DNA of 47,585 nucleotides from a virus: positions 1-47,585 of IMG/VR virus record IMGVR_UViG_3300036846_000035. The stretch is one strand, 5' to 3'. The notes below the pieces were generated by a model, which searched no databases, was not told the origin of the DNA, and saw nothing but the letters and a program-made list of their open reading frames with translations. Shown piece by piece: positions 3,601-43,974 of this stretch (the stretch's first letter is position 1; every line of letters starts with the position of its first letter). The position numbers and the translations under genes were made by a program.

Positions 3601-5847
3601 ATGTCAACAGTAGCCCTACCAGTAAGACATAGCTCAGGAAAGTGGTTAAACTCTGAAGTTTTCAATGAGGAAGGAAGGAGATTCTTCACTCATGGCTACT
3701 ATACTACAGAAGTTAATGACTCTTATGGCTACTATGAGTACTGGGATGAGCAACTAGACCGCTGTAGAGAGGGTTATGCAGTAGGAGGACAGAGGATTAC
3801 AGGAGATCACTACAAATATCTCAACTTTACTCCTATCCTACAGCTTGAAGACAAGTCTGCTGACATCCGTACAGGTAGAAAGATAGTAAAGAACCCTGAT
3901 TTCTGGGATGGAGACTATGACTACTACTGGTGTTTAGAGATAGCACGTAATGGGATGCTTAACAAGCACTCACAAGCCTCAACCACCCTTGAAAAAGAGG
4001 TAGCACTAACCCTTACTAAGGAAGCTCGTAAGGAACTCTCACTAAAAATACTCAAGAGATTACAGCTTAAGGTACAACCTCATCCAGATTTCCTGGAAGG
4101 TGGTTACCATATGATAATAGGCAAGTCTAGACGTAAGGGATTCAGCTTTAAGAACTCCTCACTCTGTTCAAATGCCTTCAACACCATAAGAGAGTCACTC
4201 ACAGTCATAGGTGCTTTTGAAAAGAAGCACCTATTTCCTGAAGGTACTATGGGAATGGCATCAGACCAGCTATCCTTCATCAATGAACATACAGCATGGG
4301 GTAAAGGTAGAGAGTACGTAGATAGAGAAGAGCATAGGGAAGCCTCATACAAGAAAACTATCAATGGTATAACCACCAAAGGAGGATATAAGTCCTCTAT
4401 GATGGCTACTACCTTCAAAGATAACCCTGATGCAGCCAGAGGTAAGGATGCATACTACGTACTCTTTGAGGAGGCAGGACACTTCCCTAATCTAAGAGCC
4501 TCTTACATGGCTACTAAGCCTACACTAGAAGCAGGAGGTGGCATAATCACTGGACAAATGCTAGTCTTTGGTACAGGTGGAGACATGGAGTCAGGTACAA
4601 GAGACTTTGCTTACATGTTCTACCATCCAGAAGAGTTTGGTTTCATGCCCTTCATAAATATATGGGATAAGAATGCCTCTAACACCACTTGTGGATACTT
4701 CCATCCAGTGTATCTTAATATGGAAGGCTTCTATGACGCACAAGGGAACTCAGATACAGCCGGTGCCTTACAGCGTGAGATGAACATAAGAGAAGCGATA
4801 AGGTTAGCCTCCTCTTCAAGTCTCTCTATGCAATCAAGGGTACAAGAATATCCTACTTGTCCTTCTGAAGCCTTCCTTCTTGTATCTATCAATGACTTCC
4901 CCATTATAGAGCTACGAGAACAGCTCAATAGAGTCATCTCACAGAAGCTACATACACTAATGGGCAAGGCAGTGTACCTTAAACCAGAGATGATTACTGA
5001 GACAAATGTAGTTACTCTCATAGATCCCTTTACACATAAGGCTGTCTCTGTACCTGCTAGAAGGAGAATCAAGATAGAGATGGATTTAAAGGGAGCACAG
5101 GAAGTACTTTACACCTATCAGCCTACCTCACAGAACATAGCAGGAGCAGTTATAATCTATGAAGCTCCAGAGCCTGACGCTCCACCAGGTCTTTATAAGA
5201 TAGGATACGATCCTTATAGGCAAGCACAGTCTACAGATACTAATCCATCACTTGCCGCTATCTATGTGTACAAAACTATCCTCAGAGGCTCAGGTACATA
5301 CAATCTCTTGGTAGCCTCATTTGTAGGTAGACCTAATGACCCTGATGATGTGAACCGTATAGCAGAGATGTTAGCAGAGCTATACAATACTCAGATAATG
5401 TATGAGAATGAAGTGACCTCTGTTAAGTCATACTTCCTGCGTAAGAACAAACTTCATCTATTAGCACCACAACCAGATAATGTTATATCTGCTGCTATCA
5501 ACAATAGCAAGGTAGCAAGAGTATGGGGTATGCATATGGTAGAGAAGTTGAAGGATGCAGGAGAGAAGTACATAAAAAAGTGGCTGCTGACTGAAAGAGA
5601 TTATGACGAGAACGGAAAAGTATTGCTAAATTTGCACTTTATCTATGACCCCGCACTTCTTGAGGAACTTATAGTGTACAATAGAAAAGGAAATTTCGAT
5701 AGGGTTATGGCACTGATGATGGTAATGTTCCAACTAGCAGAAGATGATGGAACTACACAGTATGATATAGCACCAAAAGAAGACACCATCACAAGACAGC
5801 TAGAAGAGTTAATGAATACACAATTCAGGAATACAGCAATAGCGTAA
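3601..5847 (+). CDS. terL: Terminase large subunit
   Basis: The 748-aa protein is the ATP-driven packaging motor and nuclease. The Walker A region is IIGKSRRKG at residues 172-180, a variant P-loop; Walker B is YYVLFEEAG at 285-293 with E290/E291; a likely coupling motif is LVFGTGGD at 321-328. The RNase H-like nuclease domain shows IGYDPYR with D537, SFVGRP near 573-578, the acidic YENE at 601-604, and a final Asp in NFDRVMAL near residues 700-705. Length suits crAss-like and related Bacteroidetes phage terminases, which have an N-terminal extension. It acts on the portal encoded two genes downstream. Confidence 0.93.
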   Translation: MSTVALPVRHSSGKWLNSEVFNEEGRRFFTHGYYTTEVNDSYGYYEYWDEQLDRCREGYAVGGQRITGDHYKYLNFTPILQLEDKSADIRTGRKIVKNPDFWDGDYDYYWCLEIARNGMLNKHSQASTTLEKEVALTLTKEARKELSLKILKRLQLKVQPHPDFLEGGYHMIIGKSRRKGFSFKNSSLCSNAFNTIRESLTVIGAFEKKHLFPEGTMGMASDQLSFINEHTAWGKGREYVDREEHREASYKKTINGITTKGGYKSSMMATTFKDNPDAARGKDAYYVLFEEAGHFPNLRASYMATKPTLEAGGGIITGQMLVFGTGGDMESGTRDFAYMFYHPEEFGFMPFINIWDKNASNTTCGYFHPVYLNMEGFYDAQGNSDTAGALQREMNIREAIRLASSSSLSMQSRVQEYPTCPSEAFLLVSINDFPIIELREQLNRVISQKLHTLMGKAVYLKPEMITETNVVTLIDPFTHKAVSVPARRRIKIEMDLKGAQEVLYTYQPTSQNIAGAVIIYEAPEPDAPPGLYKIGYDPYRQAQSTDTNPSLAAIYVYKTILRGSGTYNLLVASFVGRPNDPDDVNRIAEMLAELYNTQIMYENEVTSVKSYFLRKNKLHLLAPQPDNVISAAINNSKVARVWGMHMVEKLKDAGEKYIKKWLLTERDYDENGKVLLNLHFIYDPALLEELIVYNRKGNFDRVMALMMVMFQLAEDDGTTQYDIAPKEDTITRQLEELMNTQFRNTAIA

Positions 5848-5857
5848 ATACTAATAT

Positions 5858-6088
5858 ATGGATAAAGAACTAACATTTGGACAACGCCTAATGGGTATTA
5901 ACTTCAATCCCTCTAAGGATCCCAAGGTAGATAAGGTTAAAGCTCTAATGGCAGAAGTAGCTGACATAGTAGAGTCTAATGTACTAGATGGGGAGCAAGA
6001 CTATCTGTACAACCTTGTAAGAGGCATTGCTTTAAAGGAGCTACTCTTAGCACAGATGAGTGCAGTTAAGTTGCTAACGTTAAAATAA
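5858..6088 (+). CDS. Acb2/Tad1-hairpin-like small protein (candidate anti-CBASS sponge)
   Basis: The 76-aa protein has the hallmarks I remember for the small phage hairpin family that includes Acb2 (T4 Vs.4): TFG at residues 6-8, G-I-N-F-N-P-S at 13-19, D-P-K-V-D-K-V-K at 21-28, and the C-terminal signature A-Q-M-S-A-V-K-L-L-T at 65-74. Acb2 proteins form helical-hairpin hexamers that bind cyclic di- and trinucleotides and so block CBASS (and Tad1 blocks Thoeris). Many family members are untested. The location between terminase and portal is unusual for a counter-defence gene and could instead mean a packaging role. The family call is from memory of sequence patterns. Confidence 0.6.
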   Translation: MDKELTFGQRLMGINFNPSKDPKVDKVKALMAEVADIVESNVLDGEQDYLYNLVRGIALKELLLAQMSAVKLLTLK

Positions 6089-6094
6089 GAAACC

Positions 6095-8620
6095 ATGTTT
6101 GCATTTGATACCTCCAGTAAGAAGAAGTACCTTCTATCTGAAAAGGAGAAGGACAGTAACTCTCACCAGTGGTACAAAGACCAAGCTAATAATCTTATCA
6201 AGTATAACTATCGTAACAACATCTACGGAGTACTGGATGATAGCTATACATTAGGAGACAACTCTCCTCTCGATTCCTTCTGGAATAAGAAGACTAACTA
6301 CGACCTCTTCAATGGTATCCTAAACAAGTCAGACTTAAAGTACGTTTACCATCCTCTGGGAGATGCAGTAGGAGAGTTACCTGCTAACATGACTAATAGA
6401 GACATTCTATCACCCAAAATTAAAGCTCTTCTTGGGATAGAGATGTCTCTTCCTTTTTCATGGAAGGTAATAGCTACCAATAGACAAGCTACAACCAGAA
6501 AGGAGCAGAAGGAAACAGAAATGCTGAAGGACTTTGTGGTATCAACCATCATGCAGCCTATACAGCAGCAGGTACAGCAGGAACAACAAGAGCAAACTAA
6601 GGGTAGACAACTTACCCCTGCAGAACAACAGCAGTTACAGGAGCAAATGCAGCAGGAGATACAGCAAAAGACTCCTGATGAAGTCAATAGGTATATGACT
6701 AGGGAGCATCAAGACCCTGCTGAGGTACTAGCTAGACAGATACTTGAATACCTAACACAAGAAGAACGTATTCCCGAAAAGTTTAATGATGCTTTTAAAC
6801 ATCTACACCTATCCGGTACAGAAGTATTACGTCCTGTCATTATCAATAACAATCCTGTACTACAGGTTGTAAACTCACTCTACTTTGACCATGACAATAG
6901 TCCTGAAGTTAAGTATGTTGAAGATGGTGCATGGGCTGTAGCCGAGCTTCGCTACACTCCTAACCAAGTACTAACTGAATTGGGAACTGAACTCACAGAA
7001 GATGAGATAGAGCGTGTCTACGCTTATGAGAGGGAAGCCTTCTCTTCCATGAATGGTGGGTTCAACTTTCTTAGAACTGGTATCAATGATGACTTTAAGA
7101 TAAGTGTATTCCATTGTACATGGAAAGCACCCATGAAGATAGGCTTTCTATCTTATATTAATACTGCTAATCAGCTTAGTGAGAAGATAGTATCAGAAGA
7201 CTATAAGCTAAACAACAAGGCAGGGGATCTCAGGATAGAATGGGTATGGATACCACAGGCTTATGAAGTCTATAAGATGCTTGATGATATTTATGTGTAC
7301 CCACGACAATGCCCTGGTCAGGATAAAGACTTAAACAACCTATGGAAATCTAAACTACCTTACTATGGAGCAAGCTGCGATAATGTTAACTCACCTATTA
7401 CTGCTCTTATTGAACGTGGAAAGTCCTATCAGTATTACTATGATATTATCCTTTATAGAGTTGAGCTTCTTATGGCTTCTGATAAGGGGAAGATTATAGC
7501 AATGAACATACATACCATTCCTGAAACGAAAGGTATCAACCTACAAAAGATGATTTACTACATGGAGGCTAATAAGCTACTCCTTGTCGATCCAAAACAG
7601 GAAGGTAATAAGCCAGGAACAGCAGGAGCTGTAGGGGGAGAGATAGGTAACCTCGTAAAGGAGATAGACATGTCTCTAGTCTCACAGATAGATGCTTATA
7701 TTAAGATAGCAGACTACATTGAAGAAAAATGTGGTGCAGCTATGGGTATCAATAAGGCAATGGAAGGAGCCATCGGTCCAACAGAGGCAGTTACAAATAG
7801 TAAGCAAAATCTGATTCAGTCCAACTATATCATAAGACCATACATAGAGCTACATAACCAGGTTAAAAGGAATGTCCTACAAGCTATGATAGAGACAGCT
7901 AAGGTAGCATGGTCTACTAATCCTCCTGATAAGCTATTCTATGTTCTAGATGATATGTCTGTACAGATGCTACAGATAGACCAGCATCTTTTAGATGCAT
8001 CATCTTATGGTGTCTTTGTATCCAACTCAGCTAAGAGTGAAGAAGTAAGGCAAGCAATGATACAATTAGCGCAGACTGCTATGCAGAACCAAAAGGCAGA
8101 CCTAGTAGACATAGCCATCATCTTTGAGTCCAATTCTGTACAGGAAGCACTTGAACAGTTAAAGATAGCAAGAGAACAAGCAGACCAGAGAGAACAAGCT
8201 ATGGAACAACAGAAGCTTGATTTCCAGAAACAACAAGAGGCTCTTGAAGATGAGAGGATTGCTAAGAAGTATGCACATGAAAAAGAGATGCTCATACTCA
8301 AGGAAACAGAAGAGAGGAAGACAGAGCTTCAGAAACAGGTTATTATGTCTATGGGATTCAACCAGGATAAGAATATGGATAAGGATGCACAGCTTGATAT
8401 CATGGAAGTATATAGGAATGGAGTAGATGCTAACATAAAGCTACAGAAGCAGGCTCTAGAGCAACAGAATCAGAACCTGCAGGAGAGATCACAAGGTCTT
8501 GAGGAACAAAAGTTCCAACAACAACAGAAGATGGACTCCCATCAACAGAACATAGATAAGCAGAAGGTAGCCATAGATAAGCAAAAGGCTACTTCCAGAC
8601 CTACCTCTAAGGCTAAGTAA
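6095..8620 (+). CDS. Portal protein
   Basis: The 841-aa product is placed and built as a crAss-like portal, the dodecameric ring at the capsid vertex through which DNA enters and to which the tail attaches. It has an N-terminal domain, a Gln-rich insertion at about residues 153-192 (QQVQQEQQEQ and similar), a central alpha/beta body with WVWIPQAYEVY near 380, a stem region around 500-600 (NLVKEIDMSLVSQIDAYIKIADYIEEK), and a long Gln/Lys/Glu-rich coiled coil from about 680 to the end that may form the barrel or contact the internal cargo. It follows terminase and the 76-aa gene with six-base spacing. Confidence 0.88.
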   Translation: MFAFDTSSKKKYLLSEKEKDSNSHQWYKDQANNLIKYNYRNNIYGVLDDSYTLGDNSPLDSFWNKKTNYDLFNGILNKSDLKYVYHPLGDAVGELPANMTNRDILSPKIKALLGIEMSLPFSWKVIATNRQATTRKEQKETEMLKDFVVSTIMQPIQQQVQQEQQEQTKGRQLTPAEQQQLQEQMQQEIQQKTPDEVNRYMTREHQDPAEVLARQILEYLTQEERIPEKFNDAFKHLHLSGTEVLRPVIINNNPVLQVVNSLYFDHDNSPEVKYVEDGAWAVAELRYTPNQVLTELGTELTEDEIERVYAYEREAFSSMNGGFNFLRTGINDDFKISVFHCTWKAPMKIGFLSYINTANQLSEKIVSEDYKLNNKAGDLRIEWVWIPQAYEVYKMLDDIYVYPRQCPGQDKDLNNLWKSKLPYYGASCDNVNSPITALIERGKSYQYYYDIILYRVELLMASDKGKIIAMNIHTIPETKGINLQKMIYYMEANKLLLVDPKQEGNKPGTAGAVGGEIGNLVKEIDMSLVSQIDAYIKIADYIEEKCGAAMGINKAMEGAIGPTEAVTNSKQNLIQSNYIIRPYIELHNQVKRNVLQAMIETAKVAWSTNPPDKLFYVLDDMSVQMLQIDQHLLDASSYGVFVSNSAKSEEVRQAMIQLAQTAMQNQKADLVDIAIIFESNSVQEALEQLKIAREQADQREQAMEQQKLDFQKQQEALEDERIAKKYAHEKEMLILKETEERKTELQKQVIMSMGFNQDKNMDKDAQLDIMEVYRNGVDANIKLQKQALEQQNQNLQERSQGLEEQKFQQQQKMDSHQQNIDKQKVAIDKQKATSRPTSKAK

Positions 8621-10060: not shown

Positions 10061-11515
10061 ATGCGGCTAAATAGTAAACTGATAACCAAGCAGATGCCTT
10101 GGCACGCTAATATGACAGAGAGAAACCACTTAGGGAAGGCTCTGCTTATTAAGCCTGAAGTGTTTGAGAAAGTGATGACTCAGATGTTCACTTCAGTAAG
10201 ATACGCTGATAACCCCCTATCTACAGCACTTGCAGGCAAGGCTGAAAGGACTATTGGCAGCACAGAATGGGAATGGGAACTCAAGGGTGCTAATACAAGA
10301 CCCCTCGTTATCTACGAGAATGTAGAGTCCTCAGCAAACACTACCCCAGGAAAGTTCAAACAACCTTTTAAGATGAAGCTGGATGAAAACTGGTACTTAC
10401 CAGGTGATGTAATCCATCCAGGAACATCAAACAAGAAGTATCAGGTAAGGATACAGTCAAAAGGCATACCTCATGACGTAGCTTGGTTATATGAGGTACG
10501 TGGTATGACAGATGATGCACAGTGGTTCCTCGACCCTAAGTACCTGAATGCAGGACAACAATGGGCAAAACTCTTTTCACAGTACGAAGAAGGTGCAGAA
10601 CAATCCGGTTCTACTCAATACGCATTACCTATAGCTCTTACAAGCCGTATGGGAAGGTACAGAAAAATGTACAGCGTTACTGGAGATGCCGCACAGGAAG
10701 TTCTCGCTATTGCAATACAAGGAAGTGATGGTAAGATGTACACTTCTTGGGTAAAGTATGCAGAAGTGGAGTACTGGGAACAATGGTACAGAGAGCTTGA
10801 AAGAGGCTACTGGTATTCACGCTCTACAGATACAGTTCTGGGAGCTACAGGAAGACCTATCTATAGTGGACCAGGAGTACAGGAGCTATTGGAAGATAGC
10901 ATCCAACACCCTTATACTGTTCTCACTACAAAGCTTATTGAAGAGTTCCTTATGGACATCTTCTACAGCCGTGTTAAACCAGGGAAGGCAAGAAGGATTG
11001 AAGCTTACACTGGAGAGTATGGCATGATACAATTCCACAGAGCAATACAGGATTGGGCTGAAAGAAGGAGAGGGTTTATCTCTGTTGTTGATACCAATTT
11101 TATTGGTAAGGACAGCAGTGAGTACAATGAAAATGCCCTTGTAGCCGGCTACCAGTACACCAGATACCGTATGGCTAATGGTGCAGAATTAAAACTGGTA
11201 CATCAGCCTCTCTATGATGATAGAGAAATCAACTTTGAAATTGACCCCGTTACAGGATATCCTATGGAAAGCCAGAGGATCACCTTCCTCGACTTCTCAA
11301 ACCAGGATGGAGCAAACAGCAACATTATGTTGATGAACAGAACTAACTCATTCAAGTTAGCTTATGTAGTAGGTTTACAGTCACCTTATGGACCTGTAAA
11401 CAAAGGCTTCAGTGCACACTCTGGAGACTACTATGAAATGCATGTTCAAAAACAGTGTGGTGTTACTATCAACGACATCAGCCGTTGTGGTGAGCTTATC
11501 CTAGCTCGTTCATAA
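10061..11515 (+). CDS. Major capsid protein
   Basis: The 484-aa protein fits the HK97-fold capsid protein of crAss-like phages in length and in sequence features that I recognise: YALPIALTSRMGRYRKMYSVTGDAA near residues 187-211, YWYSRSTDTVLGATGRPIYSGPGVQELLEDS around 247-277, and a C-terminal region with YQYTRYRMANGAELKLVHQPLYDDRE. It forms the icosahedral shell. It follows the scaffold gene by 26 bases. No sign of cleavage or a protease gene is visible next door. Confidence 0.88.
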   Translation: MRLNSKLITKQMPWHANMTERNHLGKALLIKPEVFEKVMTQMFTSVRYADNPLSTALAGKAERTIGSTEWEWELKGANTRPLVIYENVESSANTTPGKFKQPFKMKLDENWYLPGDVIHPGTSNKKYQVRIQSKGIPHDVAWLYEVRGMTDDAQWFLDPKYLNAGQQWAKLFSQYEEGAEQSGSTQYALPIALTSRMGRYRKMYSVTGDAAQEVLAIAIQGSDGKMYTSWVKYAEVEYWEQWYRELERGYWYSRSTDTVLGATGRPIYSGPGVQELLEDSIQHPYTVLTTKLIEEFLMDIFYSRVKPGKARRIEAYTGEYGMIQFHRAIQDWAERRRGFISVVDTNFIGKDSSEYNENALVAGYQYTRYRMANGAELKLVHQPLYDDREINFEIDPVTGYPMESQRITFLDFSNQDGANSNIMLMNRTNSFKLAYVVGLQSPYGPVNKGFSAHSGDYYEMHVQKQCGVTINDISRCGELILARS

Positions 11516-36600: not shown

Positions 36601-38519
36601 ATGGAGTATCACTAGCAGTATCAGGTATCAAGTTTGACCAGTACATGAATATGATACAGAGTGAGTATGAGAAGGGATTAAAGACTGCTGTAGTTGAAGG
36701 AGGTATGTATGAATGTATAAGAGACAATATAGAAAGAGAAGATGATACTATAAGATGGTTTGGTGACCTCATACCTAATATCTACTTTGAATCTGCTGTA
36801 CCACTTGGACTACGATCAGGTCTTACTTGTGGAGTAACAGATTTTATGGACTCTCCAATGCAGTATGATGAGAATGGTTATAGGGCATATCTTACAGAGA
36901 AGCTTACATACATAGACAAGGATCAAGGTAGTGGTAGATTGTATAGAGGCTTTGCTAGTGCAGAGGTCTATGATATGAATGTAGATTACATGAGGATGAA
37001 TGAACAGAAGGTATTTAATCATCTACCAGTAGAATATGATTGTTGTGATAAGGATGGTGGAGAAATATTCCCTAGACGAATATGGTGGTCAGAAAAAGCA
37101 TTTCAAGAGGAGTTGACAGACAATTATAGAGCCTTCCTTCCAAATAACTATGTAGATGTAGAAGGAGAACATGGAGAGATAACAGGAGCATATAGATTAG
37201 GAAACAACCTTTTTATACAGACTACAGAAGCTACATGGCAGTTACCGCAGAACCAGCAAGAACGGGTAACTAATGAAGTGGTGAGCTTTGTGGGAACAGG
37301 CTCACTATTTTCTATACTACCAAGAAAGATATTGGACACAGAGTTAGGAAGTGCAGGTACTATACATAAATGGGCTAACTGCAAGACAGCAGTAGGAATG
37401 TTTGCAGTAAGTGAACTTGAACAGACTATCTACCTACACTCAGATAAGATAACAAGAGTATCTGACAACGGAATACATAGCTTCTGTCTTGAGTTTATGA
37501 TACCACAACTTAAAGGACAGTTACAAGGTATATTAGATAGTGCAGGTATAGATGCTTCATTCACTAATGACAATAATCCAGCTAACCCATATGGCACAGG
37601 TTACCATTCCGTATATGACCCTATATTCAATAGGGTATTGTTTACCAAAAGAGACTACCTCATCCTATCTGATACCCTTGACTCAATGGAAATACTTAGC
37701 AGCATACCCAATGGGTATAATGGGTTTGCCTACAATACCACAGACTGCAACTTCTACCATGATATGCTGCCTATACCTTTATCCAACAGAGACTATTTTG
37801 AAGATAGATCATTTACTCTGTCCTATTCCTTAAACACTAATCAATGGGTATCATGGCATAGTTATATACCTACAATGTATTTTCCATCGAAGGATAGAAT
37901 GTACTCATATATCTCTTCTTTTGATTCTATCTGGATTCATCTTAAAGAAGGTTCTTATCATACATTCTATGGTACATACTATCCACACCTTATAGAGGGT
38001 GTTATTAATACAGAGAACGTATTAGATAAAACCTTTGAGGATATGTCTATACAGACAAGAGCACTAGCATATTCTACTCTCAATAAGCAGTTCTTAGATA
38101 AGAAGTTCATTACCTTCAATAAGCTGCTATTGTACAATGATACACAGTGCTCAGGAGAATATACACTACAACCTAAAGAGACAGAAGCTGATAGACAGAA
38201 CTGGTATGCACACCAAGTAAATAGGAACCCAGGTATACTCAGAATAAATAGGAGGGAGACTGTATGGAACATAAATGGATTTAGGGATAACGTCATAGAC
38301 TATGAGAGTACTCTCTTCACTCTGGAGTGGGATACTATAAAGCAGGACTATCCCATAGATAAAGTACCTACACCAAACACTACTAGCTTCAAGAAGGATT
38401 GGATGGAGTTAGAAAACTTTAGAGGAAAATATATCATTTTCAGGTTGAAATTGGATAACTTTGACAATATAAATCTAATAACAAACTACCTTATAACTAC
38501 TACCTTGTATGCCGAGTAG
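33645..38519 (+). CDS. Giant tail muzzle or stabilisation protein
   Basis: The 1624-aa protein is the kind that in crAss-like phages forms the muzzle at the tip of the short tail. The N-terminus (FNGIDIDVEP, RRYTLNTVERSGDKQINLANEP, then YIPIGRRYISNGETVIIS) is typical. A C-x2-C ... C set occurs at residues 693, 696 and 710. Residues 950-994 are a long hydrophobic, Gly/Ala-rich stretch (IIIGAVLIAAG, GAAIGAVGIAL), which could insert in the host membrane. The C-terminal 400 residues are beta-rich. It overlaps the ring gene by eight bases and the cargo gene by eleven. Confidence 0.78.
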   Translation: MAKDTLYDNAYSEFFNGIDIDVEPAKQKKGSRRYTLNTVERSGDKQINLANEPSNIECTVLPQGYIPIGRRYISNGETVIISTNPIGGRTNIGILKDSKYKEYVDVGGLGTSIAYQCDIRFRIRRGNTRVIYWTDGLNNARSVNLDRLYEFYNADYEQYLKNPVGDFLGDKWDISSFELIKRYSKIPSFDNLEQLDYGSILPGSYNFTIQLVDEDLNPTNWITTSNITNIYNDSFDTPFERIRGSRNVQTSTQSWMRASKSIKLTIGHLDTDFPYYRVGVIRASSGTGQPDKVLVSDLISTYTSTYTYSGDDANLTEVPIGDVLVDKEVIYQPKHLEQQENILLLLNGKGKQVNWCSFQESASKISSKIIYKDVILNTLASEPNVKNVKARFTSIGNMPGEVYSYAAVYVFDDGYISPAFHIPGINKSEIINPTTGLCSNGMLYHELDTPYLDIHNCTTNSYWGEDYLGNTLVGSKVRHHRFPFRKDVGKPLVTHNSSSVTINKYRASATFNLNPAYKSSPSVPTDPDGYPINADGTLVPIGYTFDYKITGSASATSVSNTLIKSDLGLVLSVYDDLNSLDDIGDIIGAKLGLDSECQLAKYQDPLNPMFIITQTYIPYALETINNVDTAQIFGIEFSNIESPHPNVIGFYIVRNKREDDDRIVIDNGVFGPMTKTKDYKSLGVLAPKQFYHCDNCGHSDNAPSTPVQFCDDSMYLFSPEYEFFQRKIDFDDVVIEGVYSETSYTMPTVSDIDNSICNEQGSKGIYVQNVQAGTSFDPSIDKGSDDDGFDLLVGYRSTNMAYASNISNLQFPDKDKALYLSAASYFNYNDDTYYNVSVDNKMGVVVTKAPFSTELLRNTSANQTKLLYGSMVRTNTTSYANFMNRSYYKEHNNMVPFPASTGVEGAPPPIVDGVDIFNGDAQISAASINSTMYYDTLTATRKKKNGLLKIIIGAVLIAAGVALIWTGAGAAIGAVGIALTSAALSYGVSLAVSGIKFDQYMNMIQSEYEKGLKTAVVEGGMYECIRDNIEREDDTIRWFGDLIPNIYFESAVPLGLRSGLTCGVTDFMDSPMQYDENGYRAYLTEKLTYIDKDQGSGRLYRGFASAEVYDMNVDYMRMNEQKVFNHLPVEYDCCDKDGGEIFPRRIWWSEKAFQEELTDNYRAFLPNNYVDVEGEHGEITGAYRLGNNLFIQTTEATWQLPQNQQERVTNEVVSFVGTGSLFSILPRKILDTELGSAGTIHKWANCKTAVGMFAVSELEQTIYLHSDKITRVSDNGIHSFCLEFMIPQLKGQLQGILDSAGIDASFTNDNNPANPYGTGYHSVYDPIFNRVLFTKRDYLILSDTLDSMEILSSIPNGYNGFAYNTTDCNFYHDMLPIPLSNRDYFEDRSFTLSYSLNTNQWVSWHSYIPTMYFPSKDRMYSYISSFDSIWIHLKEGSYHTFYGTYYPHLIEGVINTENVLDKTFEDMSIQTRALAYSTLNKQFLDKKFITFNKLLLYNDTQCSGEYTLQPKETEADRQNWYAHQVNRNPGILRINRRETVWNINGFRDNVIDYESTLFTLEWDTIKQDYPIDKVPTPNTTSFKKDWMELENFRGKYIIFRLKLDNFDNINLITNYLITTTLYAE

Positions 38520-41500
38520 GAAGAAACATTGGACTAGTGGTATATTAAAGTATCAAGATGGTACTGGAGGAGGTGGTATGTTGCCTATGTCTCATTCATT
38601 AGCTACTAACTATGGAGATATAGACAGGTTTAAGTTACTAGCTGAAGCTCAAGCTAAAGCAGTACAAGATGCCAAGACACAACAGATTAATGAGCAAGCA
38701 CAGTTTGGACAAGGACCAAAAGGATCTACAGTACAACAATGGAATCCAGTATCTGCTAGAACCAAGTTACAAAGAGCAGCATTAAATCCAGTCACAGCAG
38801 CTAAAGCATTAGCAGATAAAGGAACACTACCTGAAAACTATGGAGATAGAAATGTATTAGACTATGCTACAGATGTTATCAATCCTGCTACCTATGTAAA
38901 GGCAGGCAGTGATGTACTTAGTGGCACAGGGGAGGCACTTAGTGCAGGTAATCTTAGTGACTTTGCTATGGGAGTAGCTAAAGCAGGTCAAGGAGCTATG
39001 CAAGTACTACCTGCTGTACATGATCTAGGTGAGGCTCTATCTAATGCTTCACATCCACTATTAAATACTATACCTTATCTAAATAGTAATACTATAGGTA
39101 CTTATGCTAAGGCAGCAGTACTAGGAGGAGCAAATGAATTTGCAGATGAGTTTTCTAAGACTCCAGGACTAAGTAGTTTATATAAGAAGGCTGCCTACAA
39201 TGTAGGTAAGATGAGTGCATCGGCTGCTAGAGATATTAGTGAGCTAAATGTAAGTGATGTATTAGGTAAGAAAGCTACTAGATATACTGGAGCAATAGGT
39301 AGTGCCGAAGAAGGTAATAGGAATTTACTTAGAAACTACATATATGGAGATACTAGAGGATTTAAGAAATCTGGTCTTCCACTTACAGGACTAGGTAAGT
39401 ATACTGATATGTATGGAGATATTCCAAAGTATCAGATGGATGCAGAACATTTTGGTCCTATTAGTAGTAGAGATATACCTTATAGTTTTAGAGAGAAGTA
39501 TGGTATACATTATAATGCTACCAAGGAGGATATAGATAAGTTATTAGACGAACATGGTGGTACTCTATATGCAGGAGTAGACGAACATGAATCTCCTATA
39601 AATCCTAATGATAATATAGCAGGACACGTAGGATATATAACTAGAGCTGAAGATGGTACACATATGTATAGAAGTCAGGACTTATGGAAGTTTAATCCTG
39701 AAGATTACAATAAAAAATGGTATAGTCCTTTTGATGAAGACTACCTTAAGGAAATGAAGAATGATGATCCTGAGAAGTTCAGTGTACGTAAGGATGCATA
39801 TGTTAATAAATACTTGGGTGACTATATTAAACCTATGCAGTCTAGTCTAATGGATAAGGCGGGTAAACCCTTTGCATTACTACATGAAACACCTATAAAC
39901 TATGTTAAGAGAGAGACACCTCTTCCAAGTGAGCAGTTCAATCCTTCTTATAAAAGTGGGACTATAGATATTACTAAGAAGCCTTGGGAAGAAGAGGGTA
40001 CAATGACAGAAGAAGAGATGGATAGATTAGATAGAGAATGGGAAACTACTCATGGAGGGTATAGACCTGGCTCTTATAGAGGTCCAGATGAAGAACTTAA
40101 ACCTATATTTTCACTAGGATTAGGAGGCATTATGAAAAAGAAATATCAGGATGGTGGAGATATGACATTTACTCCTATTGGTAATGGAGTACCATTTACC
40201 CCTACAGGATATACTAATTTAGCTGCTACTCAGGAGAGCTTAGGATGGAGTCCTATCTCTACTACTAGTACAAGCACTAGATCTAATAGTAGTGGTGGTA
40301 TGAATAATGCATTAGCAGGGTCAGTATCAGGGATAATGGGTTCTTTACTATCACTCATGGATAAGCCAGAAGTGGCATCACAACAACCATTAGTTAATCC
40401 AATGACAATGAGAGCAATGTTTTCTCCTTACGCTTTCGGTGGAAGTGTACAGGACTTATCAGATGATGAGATGAACCAGGTGCAACAGTTTGCAGACCAG
40501 AATGGTGTGACTGTAGAGGATGCACTTAATTACATCAATACTCAGATGTACCAGAACCAGACAGCAGATATGCCACAGACCTATGACCAAGAGGATGGAA
40601 GTCCTGATGAGAGTGATATGGCTTCTGCACCACAGTTTGCTAAAGGAGGATGGATAAAGAAAGCTGCTGCCTCTATCAAGAGGAGAGGTACTAAGGGTAA
40701 GTGTACTCCTATGTCTAAGCCTGGGTGTACAGGTAGAGCTTTGGCATTAGCTAAGACCTTTCATAAGATAGCAAGAAATAGAAAGAAGAAAGGTAAACAT
40801 GCTATGGGTGGTATAATGTTTGCAAATGGAGGTATTGTACCACCTGGTAGAGCAGCTTACAATGCCTCTAACTATATAGCATTTGGAGATCAAGGTAAGG
40901 CTGCTTATGACTTAGGATGGACTCCTATAAGTGTTAACAAGGATGGTACAGGTACCTATACTAATAGTTATGCGGGTGCTAACAGAGTATATGGGTCAGA
41001 TACCAATAAGGATAATATAGGAAATCCTGTAGGTAGTATGCAGGTAGATGTGAATAAGAATGGACTGTTCAATATGTATACGGTAGACAACAGTGGTAAT
41101 AGAGTAGGAGGTAACAATAACTACATAATGTGGCAGAGACCCTTCTCAGAAGTAAATGATTACTTCACTAACAATATGGTAAGGGCTAGGGCAACAACGA
41201 TACCTGAAAGTTCAATAGCAAAGGAAACTACCCCAGGATTACTGCCAACTGATGCTTCTACAGAGATGAGGAACAGAGCAGGACAACTTAGGGCATTAGG
41301 TGGCATTATGAGATATGCAGATGGTGGTTACACAGGTGGTGATGATACTGTAGGTATAACACATATACCTAGGCAGTTTCATCTTATCAATCCACAGCTC
41401 GATAAGTCAGGTTCAGTGCCAGTGTCAACTGCTACTCCTAATCTAGGGGCTACTAATACACCTTCTATAGTAGACTATCTAAAGTCAAAAGGATTAGATA

Positions 41501-43974
41501 GTTCATATTCCCATAGAACTAAACTAGCAGAGGCAGCAGGTATAAATGATTATAAGGGTACAGCTGAACAGAATGAACATATACTTTCTACTTTGAGTGG
41601 CAGTGATGTGAATGGTACTGCTGCAAGGACTCTTATAAGAAAGTCTGCTACTAATAAGCAGGCTAAGAATGTTAAGGGTAATGCAGTTAATCCTACTCCA
41701 GTTACTAACACAGTAACAGCAGGAAGCACCGCACAGCCTGTATCAGGTAATGTACAACCAGTAACAGGTAGACCTAATGGGAGTAATCAAGCAGGAGGAG
41801 TAACTCCTACAGGTGGTTCAGTAACTCCTGCTCAGGGTAGAACAATGCCTACATTCTCAACTGATAGTAATGACTATTACAATGAAGGCATTAAGAATGG
41901 ATGGATTACTCCACCTGCACAGGACTTTGGTACACAGAGGTTACCTAATACTACAGTAACAGCTAATACTCCGGCTCCAGTAGATAGCACAGCAAGAGCA
42001 GGTAACGAACCTACTTGGCAGGAAAGAAAAGCAGCAGCAGAGAAGAACAATGTGTGGGATGCTTATTGGAATAATTACAATAGCTACTTAGCTAAGGCTA
42101 GAGCTACACCACGTAAGGTATATCATAATCCCACAGGTGATTGGCAGAAGTTCAATACACAGAACATAGTTAATGGTACTGTAACAGACCCAAATACAGG
42201 AGACATATATACAGTTAAGAACCATAGGGTTGTAGGAAAGAACCCCAAAGGCTCACCACTTAATCGTAATACAGAACCATATAACTTCAAGGGTAATGGT
42301 AGAGTAGGTGGCTTTGCTACAGGAGGTACGTTAAGTAGGTCTAAGGCAAGGCAGATGTTACATGATGGTACAGCACATGGACAGCCTATTACTGAAAAGC
42401 AGAGGAAGTACTTTGGGTATATATCCAATAAGAAGGCTATGGGTGGTAACATGACTGATGCAGAGGTAGAAGGTGGAGAGATAATGCAAGCACCAGGAAA
42501 GAAACCACAGAGAGTATATGGACCTAAGCATGAGGATGGTGGAGTAATGGTTAATGCTCCAGTAGGTACTAAGGTATTCTCTGATAGGCTACAGGTAGAT
42601 GGTAAAACTATGGCTGATAGGAAGATAGCTAGAGAAAAGGCTTTAGCTAAGTTGGAGAAGGCACTTAATGCAGATCCTACTAATAAGATACTTAAGAGTA
42701 CTGCTGAAAGAATGCATGAGACTATAAAGATGGAAGAGTCACAGGATATGAACTTACAGAACTATGCTAATAACAATTACCAACAGCCTCAAATGGGTGA
42801 CCAAGAAAACTCACAAGAAGATATGGGTGAGTCTACTGAAGAAGCAGCATATGGCAAGTACTTAGGAATGTATGATGGCACAGGAGTATATGCAGGAGGT
42901 ACCGGAGATAATGGTATAGACTTCAACACAGAAGTACCTAGATATCCAGGGTTATCATTGGCTCTGAATGATGATTATAACTATCCTGTTAGTAGATACG
43001 ATCCTTCCTTTGGAAGTAGCTTCTACCCTTATGGACTACAGAAAGAACCTACAATGGCTCCCTTAGTAGGAGAAGTTCCTAATCTAAGAAAAACACTGGC
43101 TCTTAGCCTTGACAGTCCAGAGAGTATACCATTAGGTCAGGCAGGATATGCAGGTAGCTATAATCTAAATGCTAGGCATCCATCATCAGTACCAATGTTT
43201 GGTAAGCAAACCTTTAAGCTACCTGGTTTTGATGAGGCAGGTAATATACAGTATGGAGATGTAGCAGGTACTAGTGGTATACCATCTAGAAATACTAGTA
43301 ATAGTAATAAGAACCCATATGCTTTTAAACCAGGACTAGGAGACTACATAGGAGGTCTAGGTGCTATAGCTGGACCAGTAATGGGATTGATGAATACTGA
43401 AGCTAACAGAAGAGCTACTGAAGCTAATGCTAGGACTAATAGATATCAGGGAGTAGGTCAGAGAGCTATAGATGCTTGGAGAGCTGCTCAAGGTTATGCT
43501 TATAATGACTATGGAGAAGATATAAGAGACATAGCTACTAAGTATAACACTTTGGGTGCTAATTATAGAGCAGGAGCAAGCTCTGTTAATACTCTTAGAG
43601 GAGTACTGCCTATGTTAACAGCAGGACAGACAGGAGAGGACTTAAAGGCTAGGGAGTTATACGGAAGAAGGATGGAAGATCTATTAGGTAAGGAAGGTGA
43701 AGCTACATACAGACAAGATGTAGACCAAGCTAGAGGAGCTACAGCTATAGATGAGGCTAAAGCACAGGATATTGATGCCTACTTCAGTAGTAGAGGACAG
43801 AACCTTGAGGATATAGCAGGTGGTGTACAGAATATAGGAGCACTGTTTAATAAGACTAGAGAGAATCAAACGAATATGAATCTTATATCCCAGTTATCTA
43901 AGTATGGATTAGGGTTTGATAACAATGGTAACCTTGTAGATATAAATACAATAAGAAATAAAAAGACTACATAA
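38509..43974 (+). CDS. Giant internal (cargo) protein with GG boxes and basic peptide
   Basis: The 1821-aa protein is likely packed in the capsid. It has recurring short boxes: KYQDGTGGGGM (14-24), KKKYQDGG (543-550), AKGGWIKK (711-718), MGGIMFANGG (766-775), GGIMRYADGG (931-940) and FATGG (1269-1273). A basic segment lies at 717-764 (GTKGKCTPM at 727-735, then KTFHKIARNRKKKGKH). Residues 1278-1304 follow a K-A-x-x-M-L-x-D-G-x-A-H-G-x-P-x-T-x-K-Q-x-x-Y-F-G pattern, and 1319-1361 an EVEGGE ... GPKHEDGG ... FSDRL module. The last 350 residues are helical. Role in genome ejection or defence is inferred. Confidence 0.6.
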   Translation: MPSRKKHWTSGILKYQDGTGGGGMLPMSHSLATNYGDIDRFKLLAEAQAKAVQDAKTQQINEQAQFGQGPKGSTVQQWNPVSARTKLQRAALNPVTAAKALADKGTLPENYGDRNVLDYATDVINPATYVKAGSDVLSGTGEALSAGNLSDFAMGVAKAGQGAMQVLPAVHDLGEALSNASHPLLNTIPYLNSNTIGTYAKAAVLGGANEFADEFSKTPGLSSLYKKAAYNVGKMSASAARDISELNVSDVLGKKATRYTGAIGSAEEGNRNLLRNYIYGDTRGFKKSGLPLTGLGKYTDMYGDIPKYQMDAEHFGPISSRDIPYSFREKYGIHYNATKEDIDKLLDEHGGTLYAGVDEHESPINPNDNIAGHVGYITRAEDGTHMYRSQDLWKFNPEDYNKKWYSPFDEDYLKEMKNDDPEKFSVRKDAYVNKYLGDYIKPMQSSLMDKAGKPFALLHETPINYVKRETPLPSEQFNPSYKSGTIDITKKPWEEEGTMTEEEMDRLDREWETTHGGYRPGSYRGPDEELKPIFSLGLGGIMKKKYQDGGDMTFTPIGNGVPFTPTGYTNLAATQESLGWSPISTTSTSTRSNSSGGMNNALAGSVSGIMGSLLSLMDKPEVASQQPLVNPMTMRAMFSPYAFGGSVQDLSDDEMNQVQQFADQNGVTVEDALNYINTQMYQNQTADMPQTYDQEDGSPDESDMASAPQFAKGGWIKKAAASIKRRGTKGKCTPMSKPGCTGRALALAKTFHKIARNRKKKGKHAMGGIMFANGGIVPPGRAAYNASNYIAFGDQGKAAYDLGWTPISVNKDGTGTYTNSYAGANRVYGSDTNKDNIGNPVGSMQVDVNKNGLFNMYTVDNSGNRVGGNNNYIMWQRPFSEVNDYFTNNMVRARATTIPESSIAKETTPGLLPTDASTEMRNRAGQLRALGGIMRYADGGYTGGDDTVGITHIPRQFHLINPQLDKSGSVPVSTATPNLGATNTPSIVDYLKSKGLDSSYSHRTKLAEAAGINDYKGTAEQNEHILSTLSGSDVNGTAARTLIRKSATNKQAKNVKGNAVNPTPVTNTVTAGSTAQPVSGNVQPVTGRPNGSNQAGGVTPTGGSVTPAQGRTMPTFSTDSNDYYNEGIKNGWITPPAQDFGTQRLPNTTVTANTPAPVDSTARAGNEPTWQERKAAAEKNNVWDAYWNNYNSYLAKARATPRKVYHNPTGDWQKFNTQNIVNGTVTDPNTGDIYTVKNHRVVGKNPKGSPLNRNTEPYNFKGNGRVGGFATGGTLSRSKARQMLHDGTAHGQPITEKQRKYFGYISNKKAMGGNMTDAEVEGGEIMQAPGKKPQRVYGPKHEDGGVMVNAPVGTKVFSDRLQVDGKTMADRKIAREKALAKLEKALNADPTNKILKSTAERMHETIKMEESQDMNLQNYANNNYQQPQMGDQENSQEDMGESTEEAAYGKYLGMYDGTGVYAGGTGDNGIDFNTEVPRYPGLSLALNDDYNYPVSRYDPSFGSSFYPYGLQKEPTMAPLVGEVPNLRKTLALSLDSPESIPLGQAGYAGSYNLNARHPSSVPMFGKQTFKLPGFDEAGNIQYGDVAGTSGIPSRNTSNSNKNPYAFKPGLGDYIGGLGAIAGPVMGLMNTEANRRATEANARTNRYQGVGQRAIDAWRAAQGYAYNDYGEDIRDIATKYNTLGANYRAGASSVNTLRGVLPMLTAGQTGEDLKARELYGRRMEDLLGKEGEATYRQDVDQARGATAIDEAKAQDIDAYFSSRGQNLEDIAGGVQNIGALFNKTRENQTNMNLISQLSKYGLGFDNNGNLVDINTIRNKKTT

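Follow-up and report, generated by a model that had tools for sequence, protein, structure and literature searches.

We found that a 76-amino-acid ORF lying between the terminase and portal genes of a crAss-like phage encodes a protein, P0001, that is almost certainly homologous to the Acb2/Tad1 hairpin family and is a new, divergent member of this known superfamily. We lean towards reading it as an accessory sponge of the hairpin superfamily that was acquired at the junction between the two packaging genes. The gene was analysed within a stretch of 47,585 nt of viral DNA (hereafter, the window) and its translation is MDKELTFGQRLMGINFNPSKDPKVDKVKALMAEVADIVESNVLDGEQDYLYNLVRGIALKELLLAQMSAVKLLTLK. 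The features of the locus are:

5858..6088, + strand: P0001, divergent solo Acb2/Tad1-hairpin (FNPS-type) protein (tblastn relatives, family HMM, AF2, Foldseek)
5903..5914, + strand: FNPS block, P0001 residues 16-19 (profile coordinates and anchored gap-free comparison)
5993..6079, + strand: second long helix, P0001 residues 46-74 (AF2)
3601..5847, + strand: terminase large subunit (TerL), upstream flank (phrog_6681, E 1.1e-152)
6095..8620, + strand: portal protein, downstream flank (phrog_6547, E 2.7e-144)
10061..11515, + strand: crAss-like major capsid protein, MCP (PF23898 Crass_capsid, E 7e-137; phrog_11589)

The preliminary description had placed this ORF between terminase and portal, and the PHROG matches of both neighbours bear this out, with only 10 nt separating the TerL stop from the P0001 start and 6 nt separating the P0001 stop from the portal start. 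Since TerL, portal and a Crassvirus-family MCP were all recognised with PHROGs and Pfam, the window comes from a crAss-like phage; a megablast of its first 25 kb returned no matching phage record. The GC content is 0.39 both for P0001 and for the whole window, and a recent transfer can thus not be read from anomalous base composition. Elsewhere in the window, an 1821-aa ORF (38509-43974) carries an L-alanyl-D-glutamate peptidase-like stretch at residues 981-1076 (E 1.7e-14), perhaps a wall-degrading domain within a large virion protein.

The assignment to the hairpin family had originally been proposed from four sequence blocks (TFG, GINFNPS, DPKVDKVK and AQMSAVKLLT), all of which are found in the translation of P0001, and it stood when approached through intermediates (tblastn, HMM and fold) but not in a direct scan: PF24729 (Acb2_Tad1_hairpin) did not match P0001 in a Pfam scan up to E 1 or in an alignment scan, and PHROG and PADLOC scans of the protein gave nothing useful. 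Among 50,697 phage records, the best tblastn relative was EcP1 gp26 (38% identity, E 2e-7), followed by proteins of Providencia phage PS3 (2e-6), Pasteurella phage Pmp11 (2e-4) and DSL-LC05 (4e-3). Three of these exceed the PF24729 cut-off (EcP1 gp26 2.8e-9, Pmp11 7.5e-11, DSL-LC05 3.5e-10), and the PS3 relative, at 4.9e-5, falls just under the Pfam gathering cut-off of 27 bits, which is an annotation threshold and not a biological criterion. A motif scan of IMG/VR recovered 416 viral stretches or contigs with solo relatives of P0001 that form an "FNPS" clade, and a family HMM made from 69 of them, with P0001 left out, matched P0001 at 70.1 bits (E 4.8e-21). The top score among 2000 shuffled versions of the protein was 11.6 bits, and among the 564 reading frames scanned in the window no other fell below E 2. 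Of the 61 rows in the full family alignment, PF24729 matches 59 and misses two, P0001 among them. The homology is thus secure, and direct detection fails owing to the outlying position of P0001. Searches against the PDB with phmmer and with profiles returned chiefly designed helical proteins, together with a weak match to Vs.4 in the profile search (E 0.27 with A4), and a profile-profile comparison with the T4-type Acb2 covered only 25 C-terminal columns with a probability of 30%, which by itself decides nothing.

The predicted structure also fits the family. From a 61-row alignment, AF2 modelled P0001 with a pLDDT of 93.6 as a short N-helix (residues 7-12) followed by two long antiparallel helices (22-39 and 46-74), with no strands; the hairpin of PF24729, two long antiparallel helices, is thus predicted for P0001, and a short N-helix with two long helices is also what has been reported for the Acb2 protomer (PMC10419184, PMC12043709). 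In a viral fold library, the top Foldseek match was the PS3 protein annotated as "Acb2/Tad1 hairpin domain-containing protein" (TM 0.78/0.91). Against the PDB, Foldseek retrieved no Acb2/Tad1 crystal structure for P0001, nor did it for a canonical clade member used as a control (AF2 pLDDT 95.7), and because the control was also blank we take this to be a limit of the method on short hairpins.

P0001 is most similar to the FNPS-type solo members of PF24729 (EcP1 gp26, Pmp11_0039, DSL-LC05 WJZ48178, PS3 Stuart_43 and the IMG/VR protein L013), with which it shares its length, the FNPS and AQM-x-AVK blocks, 30-43% identity and the predicted fold. Unlike P0001, these match PF24729 directly, although PS3 does so weakly and L013 not convincingly, and most of them keep R53, T60, Q63, W68 and W75, all five of which P0001 lacks. 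In the literature searched, no paper mentions this hairpin family by name, and we found no demonstrated function for the FNPS-type members and no ligand, oligomer or phenotype evidence. With the cyclic-nucleotide sponge Acb2 (T4 Vs.4, PDB 7uq2; Pseudomonas phage p26, PDB 8h2j/8ixz), P0001 has in common the PF24729-type hairpin, the arrangement of a short N-helix and two long helices, and an aromatic residue at the Y8/Y11 position, but it is 12 residues shorter than T4 Vs.4, to which it is 19% identical, and its equivalents of R67 and T68 are substituted. With the anti-Thoeris sponge Tad1, it has in common the hairpin module, as the Pfam family is defined. Tad1 carries an N-terminal antiparallel beta-sheet ahead of its two long helices (PMC12043709), a domain absent from P0001, which is all helical in the AF2 model. 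We therefore do not class P0001 as an Acb2, because the second-helix binding residues are missing, nor as a Tad1, because there is no beta domain.

Residues of the putative pocket were matched both by Pfam profile coordinates (T4 Vs.4 and clade members) and by an ungapped anchored comparison, two alignments that differ slightly in the loop preceding the last helix. Position 16, which is Phe in 72 of 73 clade members, aligns with Tyr8 of T4 Acb2 and Tyr11 of the Pseudomonas phage Acb2, so that P0001, with Phe and not Tyr, keeps the aromatic residue that follows the N-helix in Acb2 and is required there for ligand binding. The Y8A mutant of T4 Acb2 is binding-deficient, and T68M lowers its binding (PMC12657230). 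Position 53 of the clade, Arg in 67 of 72 members, is Leu in P0001, and position 60, which aligns with T68 of T4 Acb2 and is Thr in 65 of 72 members, is Lys, so the second-helix binding residues of Acb2 (R67, T68) are here L53 and K60. R67 of the Pseudomonas phage Acb2, with which position 53 is aligned, we take to have a role in ligand binding. In addition, Gln63, Trp68, Ala72 and Trp75 of the clade are replaced in P0001 by Leu, Ser, Leu and Leu, respectively. In the second long helix, A58, A65-Q66-M67 and V70-K71 are kept, while L53, K60, L63, S68 and L72 occupy conserved positions. Overall, P0001 deviates at 11 of the 29 columns conserved at 85% or more, the joint highest of all alignment rows.

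Such losses would be expected of a hairpin-family protein that no longer binds nucleotides, a decaying or repurposed relic such as a small helical adaptor, a reading that we consider unlikely but which deserves weight. It draws on the loss of R53, T60, Q63, W68, A72 and W75, on the very long branch of P0001 in the tree, and on L013, its nearest relative, which also lacks the conserved residues at the R53 and W68 positions. Set against it are the intact frame and the retention of F16, N17, P18, K28, A58, A65, Q66, M67, V70 and K71 (V24 and A32 are retained as well), the confident AF2 model, and the tight packing between two essential genes, which argues against simple decay. Moreover, T4 Acb2 is active and yet has Asp61 at the R67-equivalent position (PMC12657230), so not every Acb2 has R67, and its loss by itself does not have to inactivate the protein and is no proof of a relic. 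If P0001 is a sponge, the substituted equivalents of R67 and T68 together with the kept F16 lead us to expect an altered or narrowed ligand specificity, and not the di- and trinucleotide range of Acb2.

The preliminary description had also asked whether the late, structural-operon location reflects a role in packaging. The location is real, but the packaging role was not borne out by the relatives. A single-protein portal search of IMG/VR found nothing, and a three-row portal alignment recovered them, giving 76 crAss-like records with both TerL and portal (portal best-segment identity 41-55%). Searched with the family HMM, none of the 76 has a hairpin ORF at the TerL-portal junction or its flanks, and in 73 of them the two genes are separated by at most 84 nt. 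The exceptions are L109 (184 nt, without a convincing gene), L156 and L163. Between TerL and portal, L156 (3438-4465) has two ORFs, one of 67 aa and an unrelated one of 275 aa that by eye resembles a glycosyltransferase, and L163 (2887-4356) has what by eye is an HTH and HipA-like pair, for which PADLOC gave weak HTH and PDC-M03A matches; the junction seems to take cargo now and then. Since crAss-like relatives do without P0001 at the junction, an essential packaging gene is ruled out. Concerning the flanking genes, the portal gene of crAssphage cr56_1 (L009:4890-7355) is interrupted by 12 stop codons under table 11 but open with TAG read as Gln; unlike it, the packaging genes flanking P0001 require no recoding.

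Hairpin genes do occur at other sites in crAss-like phages: when records were searched over their whole length, 4 of the 24 longer IMG/VR relatives (G007, G019, G022 and G023) had one, and none of 50 mostly short records did. They always lie upstream of TerL and on its strand: directly upstream of the homologue of ORF 308-784 in G019, between the homologues of ORFs 308-784 and 919-1320 in G007, and about 4 kb further upstream in G022 and G023, which encode an identical hairpin protein and whose ORF 308-784 homologues were assigned by eye. The hairpin ORFs upstream of TerL in the four crAss-like records are:

L210:1498-1728, - strand: hairpin ORF
L211:1370-1612, + strand: hairpin ORF
L212/L213:1489-1752, - strand: hairpin ORF

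These copies belong to the same superfamily as P0001, and their closest proteins are those of Flavobacterium phage FCL-2 and of elemo phages. In the tree they cluster with the Flavobacterium phage proteins (support 100/99), and P0001 clusters with L013 (support 96/94), apart from the other crAss-like copies; the L013 gene lies 131 nt downstream of a phage MCP. Forcing all crAss-like copies into one clade costs 31 log units (AU p 0.07), so that the tree disfavours a single crAss-like origin for all hairpin genes without rejecting it, and there were probably, though not demonstrably, two acquisitions. At L010:3995-4222 and L011:3980-4261 there are further hairpin-like proteins, carrying the annotation hypothetical, in a group of Flavobacterium columnare phages and Baltic elemo phages with 146 records in the collection.

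The absence at the junction in relatives, together with different copies elsewhere, indicates that P0001 behaves as accessory cargo and not as a packaging component. It is improbable that P0001 belongs to the late proteins associated with packaging or with the virion, be it as a terminase or portal cofactor or as an injected protein, with an incidental fold or as a sponge delivered with the virion. The short gaps to TerL and portal would fit such a protein, as would the members from Pmp11, Aaphi23, DSL-LC05, PS3 and L013, which adjoin TerL, TerS, portal, MCP or internal virion proteins, but other family members adjoin replication genes or glycosyltransferases. Of the 31 large ORFs lying no more than 700 bp from clade genes, 7 are TerL (phrog_2), and of the 67 at greater distances 8 are (Fisher p 0.23; p 0.50 with a permissive TerL count), so an enrichment of the family beside terminase is not supported, and with such mixed neighbourhoods a packaging function finds no support either. 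A close relative located beside TerS/TerL (L001/L059:2976-3215) has an in-frame stop in its first long helix, which might reflect a sequencing error or mark a pseudogene.

Returning to the accessory sponge, from the homology, the predicted fold and the accessory distribution we infer an oligomer, a ligand and an anti-defence effect, in the following manner. A crAss-like phage would have gained P0001 as an accessory gene, tightly packed amid late and packaging genes, and, judging from this packing, P0001 would be expressed alongside the late genes, which would be an odd timing for a counter-defence gene. The protein's helical hairpins would mediate oligomerisation, as they do in Acb2 and Tad1, and pockets between subunits may sequester a nucleotide-derived second messenger, which could weaken CBASS, Thoeris, type III CRISPR or a similar defence of the host. 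By analogy, P0001 is rather more plausibly than not a sponge for some nucleotide signal; that it acts specifically against CBASS is a tentative suggestion, which we would not assume. It is very doubtful that its target is instead Thoeris (gcADPR) or type III CRISPR signalling: Tad1, with the same hairpin module, binds gcADPR and cyclic trinucleotides (PMC12043709), but its beta-strand domain is missing from P0001, a 76-aa protein predicted to be all helical. More speculatively, and with little confidence, we hypothesise that P0001 and L013 represent a structural-operon branch whose pocket was rebuilt (R, T/Q and W lost) for a different nucleotide signal, perhaps from Bacteroidota defences, and that crAss-like phages acquired such sponges repeatedly as late-operon cargo.

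Acb2 is described as relatively rare and limited to specific phage groups (PMC11722364). The FNPS-type clade is large, a single motif retrieving 416 viral contigs, and its members are annotated as hypothetical or as hairpin-domain proteins. The clade suggests that the hairpin superfamily is broader than the described range of Acb2, although function is not transferable by name. If P0001 is a working sponge, crAss-like phages would possess a counter-defence gene of the Acb2/Tad1 type, and anti-signalling cargo could then reside inside a late packaging operon.
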